From Verrucomicrobiota bacterium (GTDB taxonomy: Bacteria; Verrucomicrobiota; Verrucomicrobiia; Chthoniobacterales; UBA10450): a stretch of DNA of 64,000 bases. The stretch is from contig QHNH01000010.1 of the NCBI GenBank assembly GCA_003218375.1, positions 125,887-189,886 on the forward strand. Direction: 5' to 3'. The notes beneath the pieces were generated by a model. The model did no database searches. It saw only the letters and a program-made list of their open reading frames with translations, and was not told where the DNA came from. Position numbers and translations under genes: made by a program. Of the stretch, positions 31,933-56,646 are shown in pieces; the first letter of the stretch is position 1; the number at the start of each line of letters is the position of its first letter.

Positions 31933-32694
31933 ATGCCAGTCGTTCTCGTCGAAAAGCAAACGCCACAGATCACCGTTCTCACGCTCAACCGTCCCGAGCG
32001 TCGCAATGCGCTCACCATCGAATTGATGACCGAGCTGACGGCTGCGATCGAAAGCGCCGGCACCGACCCGAAGCAACGCATCCTGATTCTGCGCGGCGCC
32101 GGGAAAGCATTCTGCACCGGTTTGGATTTGGAGGAAGCCGTCAAAGTGGACCCTCAAATCACGGCGGAGAATGTTGCGCGGACCCTGCTCGCGCTCGCTG
32201 AAACGCGGCTGGTCACGATCGCCATGGTCCACGGCGCGGCGGTCGCCGGCGGCGCGGGACTCATGTCCGCCTGCGATTTCGCCATCGCCGCCGAGCGCAC
32301 GAGATTCGGTTACCCCGAAGTGAGGCGCGGCCTCGTCGCCAGTCTTGTGATGACGTTTCTGCGACGGCAACTACGCGAACGGGATTTGCGCGAACTGCTC
32401 CTGGCTTCCGAACTTATCAGCGCCGAGCGCGCCCGAGAGATTGGTCTCGTGAATCGCGTGATCCCGGCAGACGAACTCGAAAAGGAAGCGCAAAAAATCG
32501 CCGCTGCGGTTCTGCAAGGGGCTCCGGGCGCGATCTCGAATTCCAAACGCTTGATGGAGGAGCTTTGCTCAACCTCGGTTCGTGAAGACGTCGACCTCGC
32601 GCTTCGCCATCACCTGGAAGCGCGCGAATCCGCCGAAGCCAAAGAAGGCATCGCCGCCTTCAACGAAAAGCGCCCGCCAAACTGGCTTTCATAG
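31933..32694 (+). CDS. Enoyl-CoA hydratase/isomerase family protein
   Basis: ITVLTLNRPERRNALTIELM, AFCTGLDLEEA, VHGAAVAGGAGLMSACDFAIAAERTRFGYPEVRRGL. Confidence 0.92.
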   Translation: MPVVLVEKQTPQITVLTLNRPERRNALTIELMTELTAAIESAGTDPKQRILILRGAGKAFCTGLDLEEAVKVDPQITAENVARTLLALAETRLVTIAMVHGAAVAGGAGLMSACDFAIAAERTRFGYPEVRRGLVASLVMTFLRRQLRERDLRELLLASELISAERAREIGLVNRVIPADELEKEAQKIAAAVLQGAPGAISNSKRLMEELCSTSVREDVDLALRHHLEARESAEAKEGIAAFNEKRPPNWLS

Positions 32695-32696
32695 GT

Positions 32697-35081
32697 TCAA
32701 GGTGAACCTCGCGCACCTTCCTTGTCCTCGGCCCCGGGCAGAAAAAGGTCAAGAACCGCAAGCTGGTCCTCGTAAATATCCCGCGTGCTGGTTTCAGCGT
32801 GGCGCGGATCAAGCCGAAATGCCTCCTGGGTGAGTTCATTGTGCGCGGCGAGATTCTTGTCAGGATCGACGCCCATTCGATGCAGTGCGAGATGGTCGAG
32901 CGCCAATTGGTAGGTCACCCACGCCTGTTTTTGATCGGGGCCACTCATGTAAACGGTTCCTTTCTGCATGAACAGTTTCGCGACGTAGGTGCCTCCATTT
33001 TCCAAGATTGCTGCTCGCAGGGGATCCCGGAGTATTTGCTGCGCCTGTTCGTGATAGAAGACCGAAAGGATAGGCGCCGTGCATCGCGCAATTTCACCAA
33101 AGTCCGCTACGACGTTCAGCCGGTTAATATTCAGAAGACTGGCTCTCGAGCTTTGATCGGCGGCTTCCGCAATCAGCTTCGCCCGGTTCGCGGGATCCGA
33201 TTCCTTTACGGCGCGCATGTAGAGCGTGTAACCCAATCCGTGAAACCCCCTGTAGTCATATTCTTCCAGCAGGGCCAACTGCCGAAATAATCGCTCCATC
33301 TTTGCCAGGTCGGCGGCGTCGCGAACGGAATAATTAAACCAGCCGTACGCAAACAGAGCATCAATGTAGTCAGGCTTGCGTGAAATCGCGGCATCATAAT
33401 GCCGTTCCGCCTCCTCATATCTTCCCACCGAAGAATTCAGGTCAGCGAGATATTTTTCTACGATGTGTATCAGTTGCTCCCGCTCAGTCGCCCGCAACTT
33501 TTTCAGGTGGTTTTGAATGGAGATGCCAACGGCCGCATCCCATTCGGGAGCTTGCATCTCGAGAAATGAATCGGCTAGATATCGGCCGTTCAGCGCTCTG
33601 TAATCCGTGGTTTCCAAAGCGAGACTCCTCTCAAATTCCGATTTCGCCAGCTTGTACTGGCCTTGTTCCAAAAAACTGTAACCCACTGCGTTGTGAAAGG
33701 CCGTTTGCTCACGTTGACGCTTGATCTCCCGGTATTTATCCAGTGGCGTAACTTGAAACAGCGCCATGTAGAAAAGCGAAGCCAGGACTGACATTCCCAG
33801 TGTGATCAAGAACCAATAGTCTTTTATGGTTCTCGCGATTCGGGGCAACCACGCGCCTGTCGAAGGCAACTGCGTTTCATTTGACACCTGCTTCAACGTC
33901 GGAGTGGGACGTTCTCCTTGAGTTATCTGCGTGCCGCTGGGCGAAGGCGTTTGCGGCTCGGCCAACGGAGCAAAAAGAAAAACGGCACCAGCAAGGCATA
34001 GGAAGAGTAGCAGGGATAGCTGCGTCTCATCCTGCTCGGTGCTGGCGAAGCGGACGCCGAGGCCGATCAGGCGCACGGGCTTTCCAGTGCGGGCGAACGC
34101 TTCGTGGAGAAGGGAGCGAAATTGTTCGAGCGACGGCTGAAGGCCGGCGCGCTCGACGGTCGTGCGCGTAAAGTCGGCGAACTTTAGCTTCACGAAAATC
34201 TTGGTGATCGTCCGGGTCGATTCTTTCTGCGCGAGGTCGGCCATCAGTTCCTCGAACAACTCGGGCAGTTTCTCTTCGCATTCGGCCAGGGTCTCGAGGT
34301 CGGTGGAGAAAGTTTCTTCGTTGCTGAGTGACTTGCGTTCGCGGTCAGGTTCGACGGGACGGTCATCGATGCCGCGGCAAAGATCATAAAGCTCGATCCC
34401 GAATTTCCCGAAGTGTTCCTGGAGCGCGAAGCGCGACAGTCGCTGCATATCGCCGCAGGTGGCGATGCCCAGCTTGTCCAGCTTCTGCTCGGTCACTTCG
34501 CCAATCCCCCAGAGTTTTCGCACCGGCAACTCTTTCATGAACGCGGGCACCTTCTCCTGCTTCACTGCGACCTGGCCGTTCGGCTTTTTGAGGTCACTCG
34601 CGATTTTCGCGATCAATTTGTTAGGCCCGATGCCGGCGGACGCGGTCAGTTTCGTTTTGCGAAAGATCAGGCCGCGGATGACCTGCGCGAGCGGGGCGGG
34701 CGCGCCGGGATGATCGGTCACGTCGAGATAAGCTTCATCGAGGGAGAGTGGTTCGACGAGCGGGGTGAACCGGAACAGGATCTCGCGGATGACAGCAGCC
34801 TCTTTCCGGTAAACATCGAAGCGGGTCGGAAGAATGATGAGGTTCGGGCAGCGTTGGAGCGCCATGAAGGTCGGCATGGCCGAGCGGACGCCGAACTTGC
34901 GCGCTTCGTAATTGCAGGTCGTCAGGACCCCGCGCCGGTCTCGCGCGCCGCCCACGCCGACCGGCTTGCCTTTCAACGATGGCTGGTCGCGCACTTCGAT
35001 CGCCGCGTAAAAGCAATCCATGTCGAGATGGATGATGGAGCGCGCTCTGTTGCCGGATCCCACGAGAACAATTTGCTTCAA
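32697..35081 (-). CDS. dinB: DNA polymerase IV (DinB) continuous with a C-terminal two-TM plus TPR-repeat membrane protein
   Basis: N-terminal about 357 aa are DinB (HLDMDCFYAAIEVRDQPSLKGKPVGVGG, YEARKFGVRSAMPTFMAL, VEPLSLDEAYLDVTDH, ASAGIGPNKLIAKIASDLKKPNGQ, LWGIGEVTEQKL); without a stop the frame continues ETQLSLLLFLCLAGAVFLFAPLAEP...DYWFLITLGMSVLASLFYMALF...TPR-like repeats. Confidence 0.85.
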   Translation of the reverse strand: MKQIVLVGSGNRARSIIHLDMDCFYAAIEVRDQPSLKGKPVGVGGARDRRGVLTTCNYEARKFGVRSAMPTFMALQRCPNLIILPTRFDVYRKEAAVIREILFRFTPLVEPLSLDEAYLDVTDHPGAPAPLAQVIRGLIFRKTKLTASAGIGPNKLIAKIASDLKKPNGQVAVKQEKVPAFMKELPVRKLWGIGEVTEQKLDKLGIATCGDMQRLSRFALQEHFGKFGIELYDLCRGIDDRPVEPDRERKSLSNEETFSTDLETLAECEEKLPELFEELMADLAQKESTRTITKIFVKLKFADFTRTTVERAGLQPSLEQFRSLLHEAFARTGKPVRLIGLGVRFASTEQDETQLSLLLFLCLAGAVFLFAPLAEPQTPSPSGTQITQGERPTPTLKQVSNETQLPSTGAWLPRIARTIKDYWFLITLGMSVLASLFYMALFQVTPLDKYREIKRQREQTAFHNAVGYSFLEQGQYKLAKSEFERSLALETTDYRALNGRYLADSFLEMQAPEWDAAVGISIQNHLKKLRATEREQLIHIVEKYLADLNSSVGRYEEAERHYDAAISRKPDYIDALFAYGWFNYSVRDAADLAKMERLFRQLALLEEYDYRGFHGLGYTLYMRAVKESDPANRAKLIAEAADQSSRASLLNINRLNVVADFGEIARCTAPILSVFYHEQAQQILRDPLRAAILENGGTYVAKLFMQKGTVYMSGPDQKQAWVTYQLALDHLALHRMGVDPDKNLAAHNELTQEAFRLDPRHAETSTRDIYEDQLAVLDLFLPGAEDKEGARGSP

Positions 35082-35100
35082 GGAGCGGCGCTTTCCAAAC

Positions 35101-35193
35101 CAGGTAGGGACGCTTTTCCGAAGCGTCCGACTTATTCAGATTGCGGGCGTCTCACAGAATAGTCGGATGCCTCGGAAAGGCGTCCCTACCTGA
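35101..35193. repeat. Intergenic inverted-repeat element, family A (CAGGTAGGGACGC...GCGTCCCTACCTG)
   Basis: CAGGTAGGGACGCTTTTCCGAAGCGTCCGACTT...AGTCGGATGCCTCGGAAAGGCGTCCCTACCTG; same family and same 93 bp length as 56554-56646. Confidence 0.9.
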
Positions 35194-35240
35194 CGCGATC
35201 GATTCCTTGAAAAAATTCCCGCGTCGCCTGATGTATCGGG

Positions 35241-35921
35241 ATGAAATTCACTTACTACGGCCACGCCTGTTTCGCTGTCCAGGCTGGGGGCAAGAATCTT
35301 CTCTTCGATCCTTTCATCTCGCCGAATCCGCTCGCCCGTAAGATCGAGATCAAGAACGTCGCAGCCGATTTCATCCTGGTTTCGCATGGCCATGGCGATC
35401 ACATCGCAGACCTGGTGGACATCGCGAATCGGACCGGGGCGACGGTGATCGCCCCGTTCGAAGTGGGGAGCTGGTTCGAAGGAAAAGGCGTGAAGAACGT
35501 CCAGTCAATGAACCACGGTGGCGCCGCTAAAATGGATTTCGGCCGGGTGAAACTCACCAGCGCCATTCACAGCAGCTCGATGCCGGACGGTTCCTACGGC
35601 GGCAACCCATGCGGATTCGTGGTCGAAAGCGCTGATGGAAATTTCTACTATTCAGGCGACACGGCACTGACCTTCGACATGAAGCTCGTGGGCGAGGGAA
35701 CGAAGCTCCGCTTCGCGGTTTTCCCGATCGGCGATTTCTTCACGATGGGGATCGATGACGCCTTGCGCGCCGCCGAATTCGCCGCGGCGAACAAATTCGT
35801 CGGCGTCCACTACGACACCTTTCCGCCGATCAAGCTCGATCGCGCTGGGGCGATGAAAGCGGCCCGCGCGGCCGGCAAAGAATTGCTACTGCCGGCTATC
35901 GGCGAGACGCTCGATATCTGA
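35241..35921 (+). CDS. UPF0173-type metal-dependent hydrolase (beta-lactamase fold)
   Basis: MKFTYYGHACFAVQAGGKNLLFDPFISPNPLA, VSHGHGDHIADL, NPCGFVVES, YYSGDTALTFDMKLVGE, GVHYDTFPPIK. Confidence 0.93.
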   Translation: MKFTYYGHACFAVQAGGKNLLFDPFISPNPLARKIEIKNVAADFILVSHGHGDHIADLVDIANRTGATVIAPFEVGSWFEGKGVKNVQSMNHGGAAKMDFGRVKLTSAIHSSSMPDGSYGGNPCGFVVESADGNFYYSGDTALTFDMKLVGEGTKLRFAVFPIGDFFTMGIDDALRAAEFAAANKFVGVHYDTFPPIKLDRAGAMKAARAAGKELLLPAIGETLDI

Positions 35922-35939
35922 CGAGAACCGCTTCGCTCC

Positions 35940-35984
35940 GAAAAAAAAGAAGAAGCGGCGGCGACCTCATCGGCCACCGCCGCT
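35940..35984 (-). terminator. Probable intrinsic terminator for the minus-strand gene at 36008-36406
   Basis: On the minus strand: AGCGGCGGTGGCC...GGTCGCCGCCGCT stem followed by TCTTCTTTTTTTT. Confidence 0.6.
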
Positions 35985-36007
35985 CGTTCCGTCAACCCAA
36001 TTGTTAG

Positions 36008-56553: not shown

Positions 56554-56646
56554 CAGGTAGGGACGCCTTTCCGAGGCGTCCGACTTCCTCGAGAATCGCT
56601 TCGCAGCAGAAATTTGTCGGACGCGTCGGAAACGCATCCCTACCTG
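56554..56646. repeat. Intergenic inverted-repeat element, family A
   Basis: CAGGTAGGGACGCCTTTCCGAGGCGTCCGACTT...GTCGGACGCGTCGGAAACGCATCCCTACCTG; 93 bp, same as 35101-35193. Confidence 0.9.

Follow-up and report, generated by a model that had tools for sequence, protein, structure and literature searches.

Removal of the last five residues of E. coli DNA polymerase IV (Pol IV, DinB) abolishes its cleft binding to the clamp (PMC9522359), and because this end of Pol IV binds the clamp, a working C-terminal fusion was given a flexible linker of 20 residues (PMC5735139). A literature search for DinB-TPR fusions or membrane-tethered DinB fusions found none. Here, we describe a locus in a 64,000-nucleotide stretch of DNA (the window) from a Verrucomicrobiota MAG, an uncultured soil bacterium of the Chthoniobacterales/Spartobacteria group of MAGs, in which dinB reads through into a frame for a two-TM, TPR-like protein. 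The first half resembles Pol IV (NF002677/PRK02406) in its complete catalytic, thumb and little-finger domains, its invariant catalytic residues and its C-terminal clamp motif QLSLL, but carries 437 residues past this motif, whereas relatives end there or within 16 residues. The second half shares with TPR-repeat membrane proteins (Pfam TPR clan, PF07719) a region of helical repeats that follows a TM segment, but it has a single clear TPR unit and is fused to a polymerase, and no full-length homologue was found for it. Most likely, this fusion is real in the DNA, restricted to a single lineage and the result of an accident.

Results

The fused frame contains an intact DinB

A sequence-only reading of this DNA had proposed that DinB is complete and continues without a stop into a protein with two TM segments and a less GC-biased TPR half. 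The analysis confirmed the single open frame (Table 1) and bore out both TM segments as hydropathy peaks, and the third codon position GC (GC3) indeed falls from 0.78 in dinB to 0.59 in the second half. The proposed stretch of about 300 aa of TPR-like repeats held in part: the second half matches TPR_2 (PF07719; 30.1 bits versus 27, in two stretches), but the repeats are less evident than proposed, a single TPR unit (near aa 544-580) being clear.

Table 1 Features of the dinB-ech region in window coordinates.
Feature	Position	Strand	Details
ech, enoyl-CoA hydratase gene, convergent neighbour	31933..32694	+	tblastn synteny in congeners; named by reading the protein sequence
Fused dinB-TPR frame	32697-35081	-	794 codons/aa; start TTG; 0 internal stops
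Second half, probably acquired	32697..34010	-	aa 358-794: TM1, linker, TM2, helical/TPR region
Predicted TM2	33750..33818	-	aa 422-444; Kyte-Doolittle peak 2.08
Predicted TM1, DETQLSLLLFLCLAGAVFLFAPLAEP, across the fusion joint	33954..34031	-	about aa 351-377; Kyte-Doolittle peak 2.53 at aa 355-373
Fusion joint	34008..34026	-	CAG CTA TCC CTG CTA CTC; junction comparison of eight genomes
DinB / DNA polymerase IV half	34011..35081	-	aa 1-357; ends in clamp motif QLSLL
REP/BIME-like palindromic repeat, just upstream of dinB	35101..35197	.	~95 bp; ~30 copies in genome
Metallo-beta-lactamase-fold hydrolase gene, divergent dinB neighbour	35241..35921	+	tblastn synteny in congeners; named by reading the protein sequence

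A Pfam search of the fused protein placed IMS, IMS_HHH and IMS_C over aa 19-357, with the IMS catalytic domain (PF00817) scoring 162 bits. The NCBIfam equivalog for DNA polymerase IV (NF002677/PRK02406) scored 456 bits, above its cut-off of 256. D20, D115 and E116, the catalytic residues, do not vary among 23 aligned sequences, and the dN/dS of dinB against the congeners is 0.046-0.060. An AlphaFold (AF2) model of the fusion is confident over the DinB half (pLDDT mostly 72-97) and of low confidence elsewhere. DinB is intact and, by the congener comparisons, under strong purifying selection. This record of selection may largely predate the fusion, and it is thus no proof that the fused form is selected. 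Where relatives usually have a free clamp-binding C-terminus, a feature outside the catalytic family definition of Pol IV, QLSLL runs into a predicted TM helix and the whole of the second half. The fused protein is a DinB with an altered C-terminus, and its catalytic family assignment stands. A further, weak match to the IMS domain lies in a short ~200-aa frame (locus L002, G000:C26:56822-57238), possibly a truncated Y-family polymerase relative; similar short, weak matches recur in many family genomes.

The second half is coding and compositionally distinct

The second half is truly coding and not a chance open frame, since its 437 open codons exceed the longest frame (296 codons) in 2000 first-order Markov sequences read in all six frames, and its frame ranks best of six under the codon usage of the neighbouring genes. 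Its codon-usage score per codon (0.049) is below that of dinB (0.375). Counted per 50 codons, GC3 is 0.74-0.82 up to codon 350 and 0.54-0.68 thereafter, and GC at the three codon positions is 0.61/0.40/0.59 in the second half against 0.63/0.41/0.78 in dinB. The fall of this step at the joint supports a separate, probably horizontal, origin of the second half.

A single-sequence AF2 model of the second half is all-helical, at low confidence (pLDDT 44). Searches for homologues found none in 58 relatives or in 83 family, 213 order, 384 class and 388 phylum genomes (overlapping sets), none in GTDB or viral contigs by peptide pattern search, and none in plasmids or phages by tblastn. Weak matches in family genomes were rejected as generic TPR proteins, and the PDB and PHROGs gave no meaningful match.

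The joint lies at the dinB stop codon

The window reads CAG CTA TCC CTG CTA CTC TTC CTA across the joint, where congeners have CAG CTG TCG CTG CTG TAA or similar. Similarity to the congeners reaches the last leucine codon of dinB; the stop is absent, and the frame is open across the joint. Predicted TM1 starts inside the clamp-binding motif. At the other end, the stop of the fused frame is two bases from that of ech. Neither direct repeats flanking the insert nor a transposon at its ends was found, and there are no Rfam matches at 32000-36000.

The palindromic element upstream of dinB also occurs at 56557-56643. It has 59 two-strand matches in the genome and many copies in two congeners (G005 and G002). 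The genome has 12 Y1_Tnp (RAYT-type) matches, which might move it.

Relatives have unfused dinB and a variable dinB-ech gap

The sequence-only reading had suggested looking among relatives for dinB ending at QLSL(F/L)-stop, for an independent TPR gene downstream and for orthologous fusions. The first was seen: dinB stops at QLxLL or a few residues later in all 28 relatives with a readable 3' end, and within 16 residues of QLxLL in 78 of 80 GTDB loci, the other two being cut by contig ends (the two sets overlap). The others were not. No relative has the window's TPR gene as a separate neighbour, and none of the 28 readable 3' ends or the 78 GTDB loci shows a fused dinB. An established DinB-TPR fusion family would have the architecture in more than one lineage; here, it is confined to one. 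This indicates that the fusion is most likely a one-off rearrangement accident, not an established new enzyme.

The order of dinB, its upstream neighbour, ech and the next gene is that of the congeners, all on one contig. In G005, the closest congener (dinB dN 0.041, dS 0.77), 80 bases separate the end of DinB from the coding end of ech, and in G007 only 25, with no TPR gene between; the gap in the window is ~1.3 kb. Since dinB almost abuts ech in both of these congeners, the ~1.3 kb was probably gained in the window's lineage. Four congeners carry unrelated inserts of 1.6-3.5 kb in this gap. In G002 and G003 (~1.65 kb), these encode, from reading the sequences, a small two-TM protein and a rhodanese/TrhO-like protein. 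In G004 and G006 (3.0-3.5 kb), they include a GT-C-like TPR protein beside ech, which resembles the window's second half in gap position, orientation and multi-TM plus TPR layout (by reading) but has no significant sequence similarity to it. The idea that the second half is a remnant of this GT-C/TPR gene was rejected, the best blastp E among gap frames being 1.3. In G001, dinB is followed by a chromate-transporter-like gene, and the 4 kb read there contains no ech. Because congeners carry different genes there, the gap is a variable site; across the seven congeners of this one genus (G001-G007, loci L046-L052), it looks like a small rearrangement hotspot.

Discussion

We favour the explanation, at a probability of roughly 55%, that an intact chromosomal dinB and an acquired orphan gene became one frame at a variable site, as a lineage-specific and probably near-neutral or mildly costly accident. 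An orphan gene for a two-TM, TPR-like protein would have landed in the rearrangement-prone dinB-ech gap of one lineage and then, judging from the relatives, been joined in frame at the dinB stop codon. A short stretch shared by the clamp-motif codons and a leucine-rich signal or TM segment of the incoming gene may have been the point of joining, which would account for the sequence at the joint. Of the two origins offered by the sequence-only reading, a real fusion or a small deletion, the in-frame fusion is the likelier, and the main event appears to be a gain of ~1.3 kb of foreign-looking coding DNA, possibly with a small deletion at the join.

With no stop left, any ribosome that finishes dinB would make a ~90 kDa polypeptide, presumably as a single product. 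DinB would be cytosolic, the chain would cross the membrane in a predicted hairpin of TM1 and TM2, and the TPR half would again be cytosolic, a topology that the positively charged KYREIKRQREQ directly after predicted TM2 (charge read from the sequence) fits. If both segments insert, the protein would be tethered to the membrane with its two soluble parts in the cytosol. The catalytic core would be left intact and access to the clamp lowered: as there is no linker and TM1 starts within QLSLL, we predict reduced clamp binding. Counting against this explanation are the single MAG, the lack of a donor or an unfused TPR gene in the collections searched, the large dS to the nearest congener, by which the fusion need not be recent, and the lack of visible decay in either half.

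It is unlikely, in our estimation, that the locus yields two products in practice, with the TPR half made also or mainly from an internal start, or freed by signal peptidase cleavage after TM1, so that the halves act separately. TM1 does resemble a signal peptide core, and in-frame TTG, GTG and ATG codons lie before and in TM2; however, the internal starts before TM2 have no well-spaced ribosome-binding site (the closest AGGAG lies 17 nt away from a TTG), and a search for a promoter-like site found none. Peptides across DETQLSLLLFLCLAGAVF would mark the fused product.

An assembly or binning artefact, in which a real dinB stop, spacer and start dropped out of the consensus or the TPR segment was placed there in error, is improbable. 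The assembly has 52 contigs and 1.45% contamination, and the composition of the insert is unlike that of its flanks. However, the flanking genes are syntenic and on one contig, which speaks against a simple chimera: a 1.3 kb segment would need to have been inserted internally and precisely at the dinB stop. Nor could an error in a single base account for the fusion, since the joint retains no stop like that of the relatives.

It is very doubtful that the protein is a natural translesion polymerase anchored to the membrane, as the sequence-only reading had implied. In such an enzyme, the TM hairpin would take the place of the free clamp-binding tail and hold Pol IV at the membrane, and the TPR scaffold would position it and bring in partners, so that mutagenesis is limited or repair is directed to DNA associated with the membrane. 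Both halves look coding and undecayed, DinB shows strong purifying selection and the topology predicted from hydropathy and charges puts both soluble parts in the cytosol, but TM1 starts in the motif whose counterpart E. coli Pol IV needs for cleft binding (PMC9522359), the flexible linker of the working fusion (PMC5735139) is absent, and the adaptive form gets no support from conservation in the relatives compared.

The fusion of an intact dinB to a probably acquired gene is more likely an accident than of adaptive value. For annotators, it is a caution that the dinB-TPR architecture rests on a single MAG. The fusion also shows how chimeric proteins can arise where a variable intergenic site borders a conserved gene. 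If expressed, it is an experiment of nature on whether Pol IV can function with its clamp-binding tail buried in a membrane helix.
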